Shown: positions 69 through 15,810 of the stretch, piece by piece
Layout of the letters: each line of letters starts with the position of its first letter
Numbering within the stretch: position 1 is the first letter of the stretch
Source: a virus
DNA length: 24,486 nt
IMG/VR virus record: IMGVR_UViG_3300013285_000076
Coordinates: 1 to 24,486 of that record
Direction: 5' to 3' (one strand)
Made by a program: the position numbers and the translations under genes
Notes under the pieces: model-generated
Told to the model about the DNA's origin: nothing
Database searches by the model: none
The model's input: the letters and a program-made list of their open reading frames with translations, nothing else

Positions 69-217
69 GCTTCCTCCACCTGATCAAAACTACCCCAATC
101 ACCTTGTATGCGTAGCAATGCTTCGGCCAAACATCCGGCAACAAAATCGTGGTCAAAATTATCATCGTCAGTCATATTCTGATACGCGATATTAATTAGT
201 TTTTCAATTTGATTCAT
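65..217 (-). CDS. Hypothetical small acidic protein (50 aa)
   Basis: A 50-codon ORF read by hand on the minus strand. It starts ATGAATCAA and ends VEEA followed by TGA. GGAG lies about seven bases before the start. Its start overlaps the stop of the membrane-protein gene at 214-363 (ATGA), and its stop overlaps the start of the gene at 1-68 in the same way, which suggests translational coupling. The end, GDWGSFDQVEEA, resembles the end GDWNVYEVEEA of the 55-residue protein at 1237-1404, so the two may be paralogues or share a duplicated junction. No known domain is recognised. Confidence 0.65.
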   Translation of the reverse strand: MNQIEKLINIAYQNMTDDDNFDHDFVAGCLAEALLRIQGDWGSFDQVEEA

Positions 218-363
218 TGTTGATCTCCAAAAGTCCAAGTAATTACCATGGCACTAAACACCATGCCGAATATTAAAAACCAATTAACCGCATACTGGTT
301 TACTTGCGCATATAAACAAGTAATAAAAACTAAGCCGTTAATAAAAAACAATAATAGGTTCAT
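214..363 (-). CDS. Tiny membrane protein (49 aa)
   Basis: A 49-codon minus-strand ORF joined to both neighbours by four-base ATGA overlaps, which is the main evidence that it is real. The protein is very hydrophobic: a first segment at residues 2-18 (LLLFFINGLVFITCLY) and a second at about 28-44 (WFLIFGMVFSAMVITW), with a short polar loop between, consistent with two membrane helices. It ends FGDQQ. Two-helix phage proteins of this size include class II holins, superinfection-exclusion proteins and uncharacterised early proteins. No lysis gene lies beside it, so a holin role is not supported. Confidence 0.65.
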   Translation of the reverse strand: MNLLLFFINGLVFITCLYAQVNQYAVNWFLIFGMVFSAMVITWTFGDQQ

Positions 364-4166: not shown

Positions 4167-4255
4167 GATGATAATTCCTCTCATAAAATGCGCCGCTTAA
4201 TTGCTGCGCATGGGGTTATTGTAATGAATAACGGCCGATATACGCGCAATGTATA

Positions 4256-4383: not shown

Positions 4384-4415
4384 GCCACGCTGCCACGCTG
4401 CCACGCTGCCACGCT
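4384..4415. repeat. Tandem array of GCCACGCT (4 copies)
   Basis: Four perfect head-to-tail copies of the 8-base unit GCCACGCT, followed directly by a diverged unit (GCCAATGC) that leads into the first 17-base palindrome. A further CCACGCTGCCACAATGG fragment lies at 4442-4458. Because the unit is not a multiple of three, selection as coding sequence is unlikely. It could be an iteron array or simply slippage. Confidence 0.85.
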
Positions 4416-4420
4416 GCCAA

Positions 4421-4565
4421 TGCACCATTGTGGTGCATTGCCCACGCTGCCACAATGGCCGCGACTCACTGCACCATTGTGGTGCATAGGTTAGTAGTCA
4501 CTAACATAGCGCACCATTGTGGTGCATTGATAGTGAGCGCTTACATCGTGCACCATTGTGGTGCA
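4421..4565. repeat. Four copies of the palindrome TGCACCATTGTGGTGCA
   Basis: Copies at 4421-4437, 4470-4486, 4511-4526 (first base differs) and 4549-4565. Each is a perfect seven-base stem (TGCACCA/TGGTGCA; six in the third copy) around TTG. The starts are 49, 40 and 39 bases apart and the intervening sequences are unrelated. Such an array could be protein binding sites (a repressor or replication initiator) or hairpins in a transcript. It is not a CRISPR: repeats are too short and no cas gene is near. Confidence 0.85.
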
Positions 4566-4647
4566 TTGGCCTAGGTGCTAAGCTGCGCGCCTTGGCCTAG
4601 GTGCCGCGCTGCCAATGCGATAGCGGCGGCCGCCTTGGCCTAGGTGC
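4566..4647. repeat. Three copies of TTGGCCTAGGTGC
   Basis: Copies at 4566-4578, 4592-4604 and 4635-4647, each containing the palindrome CCTAGG. The first begins one base after the last 17-base palindrome. An 18-base exact match to the second copy (GCGCGCCTTGGCCTAGGT) occurs inside the coding sequence of the 245-residue gene at 3905-3922, so the element or its source is not limited to the intergenic region. Confidence 0.8.
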
Positions 4648-4797
4648 CGGCTTTTCTAATAACCGATACCCCAATTTACGAACCCCCACTACCCCTCGGC
4701 CGGGCCCCTGACCAAAAACAAGTTTTTTATTAGCGCGCCCACGCAAAAAGCAACTTCTAAAATTTTTTTTTGTAAAATCAATAACTTACAACTTAAA

Positions 4798-4998: not shown

Positions 4999-5035
4999 AA
5001 AGCAGTATTTGCTGGTTTTGCGTATTAGTAAGGAT
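4999..5035 (+). promoter_or_regulatory. Copy A of late-promoter-like motif (looser)
   Basis: GCGTATTAGTAAGGAT ends directly at the ATG of the gene at 5036. The TATTAG core and flanking TTTTGCG match the other copies. At the position of the upstream box there is AAAGCA instead of AGGGCG, differing only by A/G exchanges. TAAGGAT also supplies a weak ribosome site, although it lies very close to the ATG. Confidence 0.45.
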
Positions 5036-5344
5036 ATGAACAAATATGTATACCAAATCCAAGGGGCGTTGGAAGATGCCCAGGGCCAATTTAAAGGCCT
5101 GCGAGTTTTGGTTTGCGATTTGTATAATTTTGATACGGCAGATGTTCAGGCTAGTATTTTGGATAAAGAAACAGCCAAGTACATTGAGTTTCGTCTAAAG
5201 GTAACTACAGACGTGCTCAACATCCAGAAACTGCCCAATTCAATTCAAAACAAAATTAGATTGCCGTTAGGGCAATGGCTGGACCAATGGGTCCTAGAAA
5301 ATTTCTATGGCAATACTAGCAACGCAAAAAGTGTTAACCCTTGA
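5036..5344 (+). CDS. Hypothetical protein (102 aa), first plus-strand gene
   Basis: The frame is open 23 codons further upstream, but ATG 5036 is chosen because it follows the promoter-like motif and TAAGGAT. The protein starts MNKYVYQIQGALEDAQGQFK, then GLRVLVCDLYNFDTADVQAS, and ends in NFYGNTSNAKSVNP. It looks soluble, with mixed strands and helices. A small terminase subunit often occupies this position, but no helix-turn-helix or coiled coil is evident, so I leave it unnamed. Its last 38 bases overlap the intein-like gene in the +1 frame. Confidence 0.65.
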   Translation: MNKYVYQIQGALEDAQGQFKGLRVLVCDLYNFDTADVQASILDKETAKYIEFRLKVTTDVLNIQKLPNSIQNKIRLPLGQWLDQWVLENFYGNTSNAKSVNP

Positions 5345-6290
5345 TTATTGGAAGCTGGCAGACAATATTGTGCCTGGTGATTATCTGTTTGATGATCATG
5401 GCAAACCAGTAAAAGTTACACTGGTTCAAAAATATCGCGCCACAGCTTGCTATGAGGTGGTTTTTAATGACCGCCTTACGGTAGCGGGGGACGGCAACTT
5501 GCGCCTGCCTATCGAAGACAAAGATAGGCGTAATAAAATCTACCGATATAAAGGAAAACTCAAATTCCGTAGTGCGTTAAAGCCCTATTCAATTGAGCAG
5601 CTGTTAGAAATGCCGCTACGAAACCACCGCAACCGTAGCAAATACGCCATACCTACAGCAGAACCACTGCAGCTACCCCATCAAATCCTACCAGTGCCCC
5701 CGTTTTTGTTTGGGTGCTGGTTGTTTAACCGGCCAAAAGACGGCAGTATGACAACCTCACCAGAGTATGAAGAGTATGTACACCAGCAATTTCAAGATCA
5801 TGGGTACGAGGTCATTGTTAAAGGCGTAAAAAAGCGTCGATTTTTTACAAATCCGTCGATCGCATCCCACTTGATGCCGTTTATACCCAATAAGATACCC
5901 AATAACTACCTTTTAGCCGCCCCAGAGCAGCGATTGGAGCTACTAAAGGGCATTATCCATGGAAAATCCCGGCAGTACAACAAAAAACGCGACGAATTTC
6001 GGTTTACTTCGCACTCCTCGGCGCATACTGCGCAAGTTCAGTACCTAGCCGAGTCGCTGGGGTGCAGAACCATCCCAATGTATGACCCATATTTCAAAAC
6101 ATATACCGTCTTTATTAAAACGCGGCTGCGTTTAGTATCAAATCAAATATCACCACCGGTAAGAATACATCAAGCTCGCCGATATGTGCACGCAATCAGT
6201 TCAATACAGGACCAGTTGTGTGTACATATTGAAACCGAGGGCAAAAACAACAGATTTCTTGTCGGGGAAGGATTTATCTCAGTATGTTAA
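5307..6290 (+). CDS. Free-standing intein-like Hint/LAGLIDADG protein, apparently inactive
   Basis: The order of parts is that of a large intein. Residues 9-24 (VLTLDYWKLADNIVPGD) match intein block A and its following GD turn; 56-68 (RLTVAGDGNLRLP) match block B but lack its TxxH histidine; 133-147 and 209-252 match the two LAGLIDADG-type endonuclease motifs (PPFLFGCWLF, then RLELLKGIIHGKSR with LAESLG); 301-320 (QDQLCVHIETEGKNNRFLVG) match block F. The nucleophile position holds Ala2, the end is GFISVC instead of ...HN plus Cys/Ser/Thr, and the acidic catalytic residues of both endonuclease motifs appear replaced. So splicing and cutting both look lost. It sits just before terminase, a frequent intein host gene, and overlaps its start by seven bases. 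No clear ribosome site precedes ATG 5307; GTG 5331 is an alternative. Confidence 0.75.
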   Translation: MAILATQKVLTLDYWKLADNIVPGDYLFDDHGKPVKVTLVQKYRATACYEVVFNDRLTVAGDGNLRLPIEDKDRRNKIYRYKGKLKFRSALKPYSIEQLLEMPLRNHRNRSKYAIPTAEPLQLPHQILPVPPFLFGCWLFNRPKDGSMTTSPEYEEYVHQQFQDHGYEVIVKGVKKRRFFTNPSIASHLMPFIPNKIPNNYLLAAPEQRLELLKGIIHGKSRQYNKKRDEFRFTSHSSAHTAQVQYLAESLGCRTIPMYDPYFKTYTVFIKTRLRLVSNQISPPVRIHQARRYVHAISSIQDQLCVHIETEGKNNRFLVGEGFISVC

Positions 6291-7726
6291 CACCACAGCA
6301 AGAAGTCACGCTTAAAAAATTTGCGGAGTCCAAAAAACATTGGCCTAAAGATCAGCTCGACGCGGCGATCTGGCAAGTTAAATGGGCGCTGCAGGCACTG
6401 CCTCACCAAAAAGAACCAGACGATGGAGAATACGACACCTTCCTCATGCTTGCCGGTCGCGGATCGGGTAAAACACACACTGCAAGCCATTGGATTGGCA
6501 TTCGTGCTTGGAAGTACGACAACACACGCTGGCTCGTTACTGCCCCAACCTCCAATGATATACGTGCAACTTGTTTTGAAGGAGACTCCGGACTTCTTAA
6601 TATCATCCCCCGCTCACTTATTCGTGATTACAACAAGTCCCTCTTTGAAATTACCCTCACCAACGGATCAATCATCCAAGGTATCCCCGCGTCCGAGCCA
6701 GAACGATATCGTGGTAAACAATACCACGGGGCCTGGTTTGACGAGCTGTGCGCATTTGATTACCTCGATGAAGCCTACGACGGCGTACAGTTTACCCTCC
6801 GTCTTAAAGACCCTCGGATTGAGCGAGTGCAGCAGATTATTACCACCACACCAAAACCTAGGGAAACGATTGTAGACTTAGCAGAAGGTAAGATTGGTGG
6901 CGACGTGTACATGGTTAACGCGTCCTCGTACGACAACAAAGCCAACCTTTCAGAAACCTTCTTCAAACAGCTTGAGACGTACGATGGTACAGACATGGGT
7001 CGACAGGAGATTTACGGAGAGATTCTAGATCCGGAGTCTTCTGGTATTGTCAAACGCTCGCAATTTAAGATGTGGCCAGCAAACAAACCAACGCCTGAGC
7101 TGGAATTTGTGTTGGCATCATACGATCCAGCCACCTCAGAAAAGACTATCAACGATCCGACTGCATGCGAAGTGTGGGGTGTGTTCCAGCAACTTGACGG
7201 CGGTCTTAATGCCATCTTGCTAGATGCCTGGGATGAACACCTGTCCTATCCAGAGTTGCGCAGGAAAGTCATTGACGATTTTAAAGAGATTGTGTACGGT
7301 GCAGATAACGACTTTGGTAAAGGTAAAAAAGCCGACATCATCCTTATGGAAGACAAATCGGCGGGTATCTCACTGATTCAAGAATTGCGAGCCTCTGGAG
7401 TCCCGGTGCAAGGATACAACCCTGGCAGAGCAGATAAGGTGCAGCGATTGAACATTGTTGCGCCTCTGATCGCTAAAGGCAAAGTGTTTATCCCAGAGGA
7501 CCCAAACCGCAAGGGTGAGTTTGTTGAATGGGCAAAACGTTTTATCCGTCAGGTGTGTTCGTTCCCAGAAGCTAAAGGCCACGATGACTACGTTGATTCA
7601 CTGTCCCAGGCGCTGCGTTACCTCAGAGACGATGGTTGGCTGCGTTTAGACCCACTTCCGGCGCGAGATTACGATTACGCCGACGAGGATCCTAAAAAGC
7701 GATATGCCAACCCATACGCCCAATAA
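6284..7726 (+). CDS. terL: Terminase large subunit (480 aa)
   Basis: This is the ATP-driven DNA-packaging motor and headful or site-specific nuclease that feeds DNA through the portal. The ATPase half shows Walker A AGRGSGKT (57-64), Walker B GAWFDEL (149-155, with D153 and E154) and the coupling motif TTTP (187-190). The RNase H-like nuclease half shows acidic positions in LASYDPA (D281), LMEDKSAG (E356/D357) and HDDYVDSL (D434, D435, D438). Length is normal for the family. There is no intein inside it, although an intein-like gene lies directly upstream and overlaps the start. GGGGAAGGA lies about twelve bases before the ATG. The stop codon's last base begins promoter-like copy B. Confidence 0.95.
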   Translation: MLTPQQEVTLKKFAESKKHWPKDQLDAAIWQVKWALQALPHQKEPDDGEYDTFLMLAGRGSGKTHTASHWIGIRAWKYDNTRWLVTAPTSNDIRATCFEGDSGLLNIIPRSLIRDYNKSLFEITLTNGSIIQGIPASEPERYRGKQYHGAWFDELCAFDYLDEAYDGVQFTLRLKDPRIERVQQIITTTPKPRETIVDLAEGKIGGDVYMVNASSYDNKANLSETFFKQLETYDGTDMGRQEIYGEILDPESSGIVKRSQFKMWPANKPTPELEFVLASYDPATSEKTINDPTACEVWGVFQQLDGGLNAILLDAWDEHLSYPELRRKVIDDFKEIVYGADNDFGKGKKADIILMEDKSAGISLIQELRASGVPVQGYNPGRADKVQRLNIVAPLIAKGKVFIPEDPNRKGEFVEWAKRFIRQVCSFPEAKGHDDYVDSLSQALRYLRDDGWLRLDPLPARDYDYADEDPKKRYANPYAQ

Positions 7727-7765
7727 GGGCGGAAACGACATAAACTGCGTATTAGTTAGAATAAG
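7726..7765 (+). promoter_or_regulatory. Copy B of bipartite promoter-like motif
   Basis: AGGGCG (7726-7731), 16 bases, then CGTATTAGTTAGAATAAG (7748-7765) and immediately the ATG of the 48-codon gene. The upstream box starts in the terminase stop codon. Spacing and sequence are the same as copies C and D. TATTAG is ten bases from the ATG, so a transcript starting about seven bases after it would have only a few leader bases. Confidence 0.6.
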
Positions 7766-10986: not shown

Positions 10987-11023
10987 AGGGCGGAATTGTT
11001 CTGTCCTACGTATTAGTTAAAAT
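10987..11023 (+). promoter_or_regulatory. Copy C of bipartite promoter-like motif, start codon adjacent
   Basis: AGGGCG (10987-10992), 16 bases, then CGTATTAGTTAAAAT (11009-11023) and at once the ATG of the next gene. No ribosome-binding sequence fits between the TATTAG core and the ATG, which are seven bases apart. The upstream box is also part of a nine-pair hairpin, AGGGCGGAA-TTG-TTCTGTCCT (10987-11007, two G-U pairs). Confidence 0.6.
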
Positions 11024-11682: not shown

Positions 11683-12051
11683 ATGGCTTCTAGTTTAGAA
11701 ACGCAGCAAAAGTACCGAAGCAAAACCCCAAGGTATAGCTTAGGTCAAACGCTGAATCATGCTAAAAAAAGAGCCGAAGTAACAATTACAATCCAAGATC
11801 TTATGGATATTTTTGAAAAGCAAGAAGGCCTTTGCGCTTTAAGCGGATTAAAAATGACATGGCATCAAGGAAAAATTCTTCCAACCTCAATATCAATTGA
11901 CCGGATAGATAATAGTAAGGGTTATGTTCATGGTAACGTAAGATTGGTTTGTGTTGTTGTTAATGCTTTTAAAAGCACTCAAACAGATAGTGAACTCTAT
12001 GAGTTTGCCAAAAGTTTAGTGGAAAACATGGCAAAAACACTTCCGAATTAA
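11683..12051 (+). CDS. HNH-family endonuclease, free-standing (122 aa)
   Basis: The compact core is typical of small HNH/His-Me finger nucleases: C51-ALSG, then SIDRIDNSKGYVHGNVRLVC (71-90) with D73, R74 and D76, GN at 84-85, and VNAFK (93-97). The amino end is basic (QQKYRSKTPRY), likely for DNA contact. It begins one base after the GroES-like stop with no clear ribosome site and splits the co-chaperonin from the scaffold gene. This fits a homing endonuclease that has settled between genes. The target is unknown. Confidence 0.85.
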   Translation: MASSLETQQKYRSKTPRYSLGQTLNHAKKRAEVTITIQDLMDIFEKQEGLCALSGLKMTWHQGKILPTSISIDRIDNSKGYVHGNVRLVCVVVNAFKSTQTDSELYEFAKSLVENMAKTLPN

Positions 12052-15319: not shown

Positions 15320-15772
15320 ATGGCAAGAGATCAAGAAAACGCAAAAAGACTTAAAAAAGAATGGTATGCGCGCAACAAAGCACTTACCATTGAACGCGCG
15401 CGTCTTTGGGCTTTAGCAAATCCAGAAAAGAAACACGAAATACACAGAAAAAACAGAACAAAAGATTTAGAAAACCATAATGCCCGCAATCGCGAATGGA
15501 ATAAAAACAATAAAGACAAACGCGCAGCCTATGAGGGCAAACGCCGTGCTATGCAACTTCAACGCACTCCAGCTTGGGACCCAGACGCACACCTTATTAT
15601 TGCCAAATACCAACTAGCCGCTATGTTTACTAAGGCATCTGGCATCGAGCACCACGTAGACCACATTATCCCACTGCAGGGTAAAAAAGTCTCAGGACTT
15701 CACACCTTCGCCAACCTCAGAGTCATCCCCGGCTCAGACAACGTCAAAAAATCCAACAAATACCCGGTCTAG
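15320..15772 (+). CDS. HNH endonuclease (150 aa)
   Basis: The carboxyl half holds the canonical HNH core: HHVDHIIPLQGKKVSGLHTF (111-130) with D114 and H115, then ANLRVIPGSDNVKKSNKY with N132, N141 and K143-K144. The amino half is strongly basic and helical (ENAKRLKKEWYARNKALTIE), likely contacting DNA. Such free-standing HNH proteins are usually homing endonucleases, though some assist packaging when beside terminase, which is not the case here. It lies between the capsid terminator and promoter-like copy D, so it forms its own small transcription unit. Confidence 0.9.
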   Translation: MARDQENAKRLKKEWYARNKALTIERARLWALANPEKKHEIHRKNRTKDLENHNARNREWNKNNKDKRAAYEGKRRAMQLQRTPAWDPDAHLIIAKYQLAAMFTKASGIEHHVDHIIPLQGKKVSGLHTFANLRVIPGSDNVKKSNKYPV

Positions 15773-15810
15773 GGCGCTTTTTAATCTTTTTGCGTATTAG
15801 TTAAAATAAG
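15771..15810 (+). promoter_or_regulatory. Copy D of bipartite promoter-like motif
   Basis: AGGGCG (15771-15776), beginning in the HNH stop codon, 16 bases, then CGTATTAGTTAAAATAAG (15793-15810). It is the only copy not touching a start codon: the next gene begins 90 bases later. It would drive the run of virion and tail-fibre genes that follows. Confidence 0.6.

Follow-up and report, generated by a model that had tools for sequence, protein, structure and literature searches.

The window analysed here, a virus record 24,486 bases long, looks like the structural half of the genome of a tailed phage. Directly before the terminase gene, terL, it carries a free-standing gene with the build of a large intein, and the question this raises is what such a gene, with no protein from which to be spliced, might be for. 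We call the gene and its protein 'Hint', and reserve capitals ('HINT') for the intein domain and fold. An earlier note on this DNA took Hint for a fossil intein that may have been expelled from its former host gene or copied beside it; the intact frame suggested to the note that selection maintains some other function, for example in binding DNA or regulating packaging. That interpretation is partly supported: selection for a new role, one that probably involves DNA binding and is tied to packaging, appears well founded, as judged by the intact frame, dN/dS, linkage to TerL, predicted fold and basic charge, and decay does not.

Anatomy and setting of the gene

The Hint frame opens with ATG and continues for 984 bases, or 327 amino acids, without an internal stop. 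It runs from intein residue 1 (as Met plus Ala1) to the end of block G, and no extein flanks it, just as had been described. Searches of Pfam and of PDB sequences, and with phmmer, return weak matches when the single protein is used, and a family alignment and a structure were needed to place it. Its PHROG matches are mainly to profiles of intein-containing TerL (terminase-with-intein profiles, E 3.5e-11), and in tblastn residues 8-324 align with inteins inside mycobacteriophage terminases. The AlphaFold2 model, built with 64 homologues in the input, has a pLDDT of 87.4 and predicts the HINT fold (the intein 'horseshoe') joined to LAGLIDADG. The model aligns with PI-SceI over residues 1-327 (Z 24.4, rmsd 3.9, 314 residues), which is far above chance, and one of its best HINT matches is the DnaB intein, also of class 3, from M. 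smegmatis (Z 19.4). By this model Hint has the fold of an intein, and the full anatomy first read from the letters, HINT blocks and two LAGLIDADG-like motifs, is confirmed.

Hint lies between a small gene, ORF1, and terL, and overlaps both (Table 1). Throughout the clade of phages that possess it, the order ORF1-Hint-TerL is fixed and so are the overlaps: 38, 68 or 74 nt between ORF1 and Hint, and 7 or 10 nt between Hint and TerL. Overlaps so small suggest that translation of the three genes is coupled and that their products are made in matched amounts. The neighbouring terminase was correctly described as intact and intein-free, its P-loop SGKT codons being uninterrupted. ORF1 gave no convincing match in PHROG, Pfam, PDB sequences or Foldseek. 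As a recognisable terminase small subunit (TerS) it was considered and rejected: it matches no TerS, and against the short TerS of the sister clade described below hhalign returns a probability of 1.9%. Trans splicing between ORF1 and TerL was also rejected, for Hint lacks both the final Asn and the Trp, and its frame differs from that of ORF1.

Table 1. Features of the window discussed in the text (positions are those of the window unless marked as residues)
Feature	Position	Strand	Remarks
Palindrome TGCACCATTGTGGTGCA, copy 1	4421..4437	.	Upstream array
Palindrome, copy 2	4470..4486	.	Upstream array
Palindrome, copy 3, one mismatch	4510..4526	.	Upstream array
Palindrome, copy 4	4549..4565	.	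Upstream array
Motif TGCGTATTAGT	5019-5029, 7746-7756, 15791-15801; 11007-11017		Last site with one mismatch
ORF1, 102 aa, no convincing family match	5036..5344	+	Overlaps Hint gene by 38 nt
Hint gene, standalone, intein-derived	5307..6290	+	ORF, profile matches, alignment, AF2 model
Hint domains: HINT halves	residues ~1-125 and ~287-327
Hint domains: two-motif LAGLIDADG	residues ~126-286		Catalytically dead by sequence
TerL, 480 aa, complete, intein-free	6284..7726	+	Overlaps Hint gene by 7 nt
TerL P-loop SGKT codons	6464..6475	+	Counted from TerL start; intein site, empty here
HNH/endonuclease VII-like genes, two further	11683-12051 and 15320-15772		One after GroES-like gene, one after major head gene

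Motif TGCGTATTAGT occurs just before ORF1, after TerL, and at one other intergenic spot; variants of it, TTGCATTAGT, are found at corresponding positions across the clade, and it looks like a phage-specific promoter. A search for DNA sites in the gap between TerL and portal yielded only a promoter-like motif, and an Rfam search of the window yielded no match. Within terL, the +1 frame at window 6423-6875 is probably an overlapping gene, of ~150 aa. Counted in codons from the P-loop, no stop interrupts this frame from ~-20 to +120 in 99-100% of the TerLs of the Hint clade (107 distinct), against 0.57-0.80 stops in most 20-codon bins of a synonymous-shuffle null, and its ATG is conserved in 90 of the 107; sister TerLs have stops in that region. 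Its product has a hydrophobic N-terminal stretch, and no family match for it was found.

Residues lost and residues kept

The nearest intein relatives of Hint belong to class 3 (profile E-values 1.6e-25 to 2.6e-18). They are found mostly between the Lys and the Thr/Ser of the P-loop (GK^T), in TerL or other NTPases, and most have a variable residue 1 and the signature termed 'WCT' (Trp in block B, Cys in block F, Thr in block G). Class 3 inteins require no Cys1; the block F Cys starts their splicing. The residue of Hint that aligns with residue 1 of these relatives is Ala2, and because the relatives are class 3, and need no Cys1, its absence is ancestral. Here the earlier note, which counted a first Cys/Ser among the losses, was mistaken; alignment with the class 3 inteins of terminases upholds the homology and removes this residue from the list.

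Residue counts refer to 109 distinct full-length Hint proteins. All 109 retain the block F Cys (C305), the class 3 nucleophile, none has the block B Trp, and nine have the block G Thr, leaving the WCT triplet incomplete. Hint, as its residues read, is class 3 by descent and not by function. The final His-Asn is gone, as had been noticed, and homologues end instead in SVC, ACH, PCL, SCR and similar triplets. The block B His, also reported missing, is indeed absent from the window protein (N64); as a statement about the family this does not hold, since 35 of the 109 retain it. Two further cysteines are invariant. One is C48 (109/109); in the M. smegmatis DnaB intein, itself of class 3, a disulfide can link Cys48 to Cys118, which is catalytic (PMC6195587). 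The other is C327, the codon of which is fixed because the start of TerL overlaps it.

In the LAGLIDADG part the helix glycines, G136 and G215, are invariant, and the catalytic acids of a homing endonuclease are missing, again as first observed. Position 141 is N, A, S, G, C or R (N141 in the window), and position 220 is K in 103 proteins, R in four and otherwise S or N (K220 in the window); at neither position is any of the 109 acidic. The mean net charge of Hint is about +17, of which +11 resides in the LAGLIDADG part; the charges of eight relatives span -8 to +12, with six lying between -3 and +2. Since the residues for cutting have gone, basic charge has been gained, and selection is strong (see below), Hint is best read as a nuclease-dead protein that probably binds DNA.

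Where did it come from? The nearest relatives of Hint occupy the TerL P-loop of other phages, and this makes descent from some TerL P-loop intein plausible. Expulsion from its own former host gene, the neighbouring terL, is another matter: it finds no direct support, because neither the Hint clade nor the sister clade has anything inserted at the P-loop site.

A gene fixed in the place of TerS

The family was drawn from a profile scan of viral contigs, of which the best 80 of 247 Hint relatives were used, with additions from ORF1- and TerL-based scans, the latter covering at least 600 stretches of the clade. Deduplication of 155 locus records (some contigs appear twice) left the 109 distinct full-length proteins. 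These are 321-334 residues long, with pairwise identities down to 39%, begin with Met-Ala, and end with the last intein block; all are standalone and open-framed. Their median dN/dS is 0.075 (IQR 0.05-0.09), or about 0.08, compared with 0.039 for the adjacent TerL. On this value, together with 109 distinct open frames, decay is rejected; Hint is a conserved gene and the name 'fossil' does not suit it.

Hint is also a constant companion of terL. Among the matches listed, chosen by TerL alone, 79 loci include upstream sequence, and Hint is present in all 79 and TerS in none. The gene is full-length in 68, cut by the contig end in nine, and interrupted by a stop or frameshift in two (L259 and L272), which may be assembly errors. 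Hint distances correlate with those of TerL (r 0.64; 0/999 permutations), ORF1 distances correlate too, and the ORF1-Hint-TerL module is therefore mostly co-inherited. The patchy presence and discordant history of a mobile gene are not seen. ORF1-Hint-TerL is also present in three contigs (L314, L315 and L316) assigned to a single betaproteobacterial MAG from freshwater, which is either a binning artefact or a weak clue to the host.

The closest TerL clade without Hint, the sister clade (best GenBank member MW202545, 54% identical), has a TerS instead. Among its 82 loci, TerS is found just upstream of TerL in 75 by single-sequence search and in 78 by iterated profile, either as the Sf6 type (PF20901) or as a shorter form with a common C-terminal tail; neither Hint nor ORF1 was found in these loci. 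In a TerL tree rooted with a TerS-bearing Caulobacter phage, the Hint-clade sequences form one monophyletic group (support 1.0). Profiles for both sister TerS forms detect nothing in 20 Hint-clade contigs of up to 68 kb, a result that a diverged, fast-evolving TerS could escape and that applies to contigs most of which may be incomplete; the longer-form profile matches 13 of 13 sister contigs. PF20901, PF03592 and PF05119 give no match above cut-off in 12 Hint-clade records. Hint thus fills the slot directly upstream of terL in a clade where no TerS was found, and neither it nor ORF1 resembles TerS families in sequence. Canonical TerS proteins form rings.

Two observations on the sister phages may be added. 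Sister loci L170-L248 include at least two unrelated TerS N-terminal types with one common C-terminal tail, NVFGELLKxIKxQRQ, which suggests that the DNA-binding parts are swapped and the presumed contact with TerL stays. And in Caulobacter phage RW, TerS and a methyltransferase flank an additional 223-aa piece of a TerL N terminus (L006 2445-3113); this piece includes a P-loop of its own, and the full TerL follows downstream.

The Hint clade has a further peculiarity, a palindrome, TGCACCA-N3-TGGTGCA, that forms arrays ~0.35-0.9 kb upstream of ORF1. The window contains four copies, a number reached by 0/100 shuffles. Of 83 distinct Hint-clade loci, 63 have the palindrome. Its copies number 155 in the upstream stretch and one in the rest of these loci (~650 kb), and sister loci have none in 637 kb. 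Twenty of the 83 lack the exact palindrome, some of them having variants or another palindrome, and a second palindrome, GTGAGCGCTCAC, occurs with close variants in 24. Repeated palindromes are present upstream in 59 of 82 Hint-clade loci versus 0 of 53 sister loci (upstream of TerS). Conversely, when viral contigs were scanned blind for the exact pattern, 23 of the 25 stretches with at least two copies, among the matches listed, had the Hint module. Presence of the palindrome tracks Hint relatedness. In a 68,107-bp Hint-clade contig the array is across the contig junction from the Hint gene, the arrangement presumably being that of a circular genome. In the window the array lies between a minus-strand block that ends at 4184 and ORF1 at 5036, and because this stretch separates divergent gene blocks the palindromes could be operators or replication-origin iterons; for Hint/ORF1 they are a candidate packaging site only. 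Around the array, window 4384-4655 also contains short tandem units, GCCACGCT (x4) and TTGGCCTAGGTGC (x3).

Possible roles and known systems

We propose that, in an ancestor of these freshwater phages, a class 3 intein of the TerL P-loop type came to stand as a gene of its own, with ORF1 on one side and terL on the other. It would have lost its extein junctions, its splicing and its nuclease activity, kept its HINT and LAGLIDADG folds, and become a basic packaging protein that presumably binds DNA. With ORF1 it may then have taken over the job of TerS, as the replacement of TerS and the patterns of co-occurrence suggest. The pair would recognise a specific genomic site, for which the palindrome array is the probable candidate, and hand the DNA to TerL, which would cut and package it. 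To the complete model, that a domesticated intein and ORF1 replaced TerS in genome recognition, we assign a probability of roughly one half. The more specific proposal, that a dead class 3 intein and its small partner replaced a lost TerS as the genome-recognition subunit of the packaging motor by reading the palindromic array, is put forward tentatively, at somewhat less than even odds.

Two other roles, the chief rivals and equally placed, seem unlikely, and deserve attention nonetheless. Hint might be a regulator that binds the array between the divergent early (minus) and late (plus) blocks, and governs either the switch between them or its own operon, TerS then being ORF1 or an unrecognised gene. 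The position of the array suits this idea, palindromes are typical operators, and there is the precedent of WhiA, a DNA-binding bacterial transcription factor derived from LAGLIDADG. What regulation leaves unexplained is why Hint is fixed, with overlaps, between ORF1 and TerL, and why it appears exactly where TerS disappears. Alternatively, ORF1 could be a real but unrecognisable TerS and Hint an accessory packaging factor, like the HNH protein of HK97 without the cutting of DNA. ORF1 is as strictly placed as Hint (all 156 ORF1 loci have Hint), and the free swapping of N-terminal parts in sister TerS proteins, with retention of the tail, is in keeping with this; ORF1, however, matches no TerS, is not similar to that of the sister clade, and resembles no other structure clearly.

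Neither of the two remaining explanations fits well. A dead Hint might bind the DNA of the TerL P-loop, and so shield it from cleavage by the terminase inteins of rival phages. Its nearest relatives are mostly P-loop inteins, and synonymous conservation is raised, in the Hint clade only, at TerL codons 51-130 around the P-loop. That conservation is the sole positive sign, and it is better explained by the +1-frame ORF that overlaps there; the loss of TerS and the palindromes stay unexplained, and we regard a shield as very improbable. We give almost no credence to a chance neighbour of terL, a free-standing homing element that is in decay or still moves. Free-standing homing genes of phages are often near terminase genes (PMC10448857), and the two interrupted frames among the 79 listed loci could be read as decay. 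But all catalytic acids are gone, dN/dS is low, and no TerL-sampled locus with upstream sequence, among the matches listed, is without Hint; mobility is rejected on the lost acids, the distances that follow those of TerL, and the presence in 79/79.

A large clade of uncultured freshwater phages has kept under strong selection the fold of an intein from which both selfish activities have, to judge by its residues, disappeared. Hint shows how a parasite can turn into a component for structure or recognition, and the origin of new small terminases becomes directly testable here because a TerS clade and an intein-module clade share homologous TerL. Domesticated inteins are, to our knowledge, rare, yeast HO being the known case and one that still cuts DNA. 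We found no report of the Hint family, or of any packaging module that includes a dead intein, in the open-licence PMC literature; subscription journals may hold one.

The systems most like Hint in sequence are the class 3 inteins of the terminases of Mycobacterium phage Constella and Escherichia phage Ec_Makalu_002, to which it is homologous over its full length (profile E 1.6e-25 and 1.2e-24, respectively). They have in common the order of HINT and LAGLIDADG, a residue 1 other than Cys, and the block F Cys; Hint differs in being standalone, without exteins, block B Trp or final HN, and strongly basic, with a LAGLIDADG part that is dead by sequence. WhiA is cellular, with an HTH domain and no HINT domain, whereas Hint is a phage protein with a HINT domain. 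The yeast HO and WHO elements show that an intein can be released from its host protein and become domesticated (PMC7282813). Like Hint they are standalone, extein-less, intein-derived genes, and HO is domesticated; unlike Hint, which ends at block G, is apparently nuclease-dead and belongs to a phage packaging context, they have an active nuclease and a C-terminal zinc finger. Similar in setting is the HNH endonuclease beside the HK97 terminase, a homing-type protein that cooperates in packaging (PMC10448857). Its gene, like Hint, is upstream of the terminase, but HNH is active in cos cleavage and Hint is a LAGLIDADG protein without catalytic acids. Similar in position is the Sf6-type TerS (PF20901) of the sister phages: its HTH/Sf6 fold has no sequence relation to the HINT-LAGLIDADG of Hint, yet the two occupy the same slot before TerL and, we propose, may do the same job.
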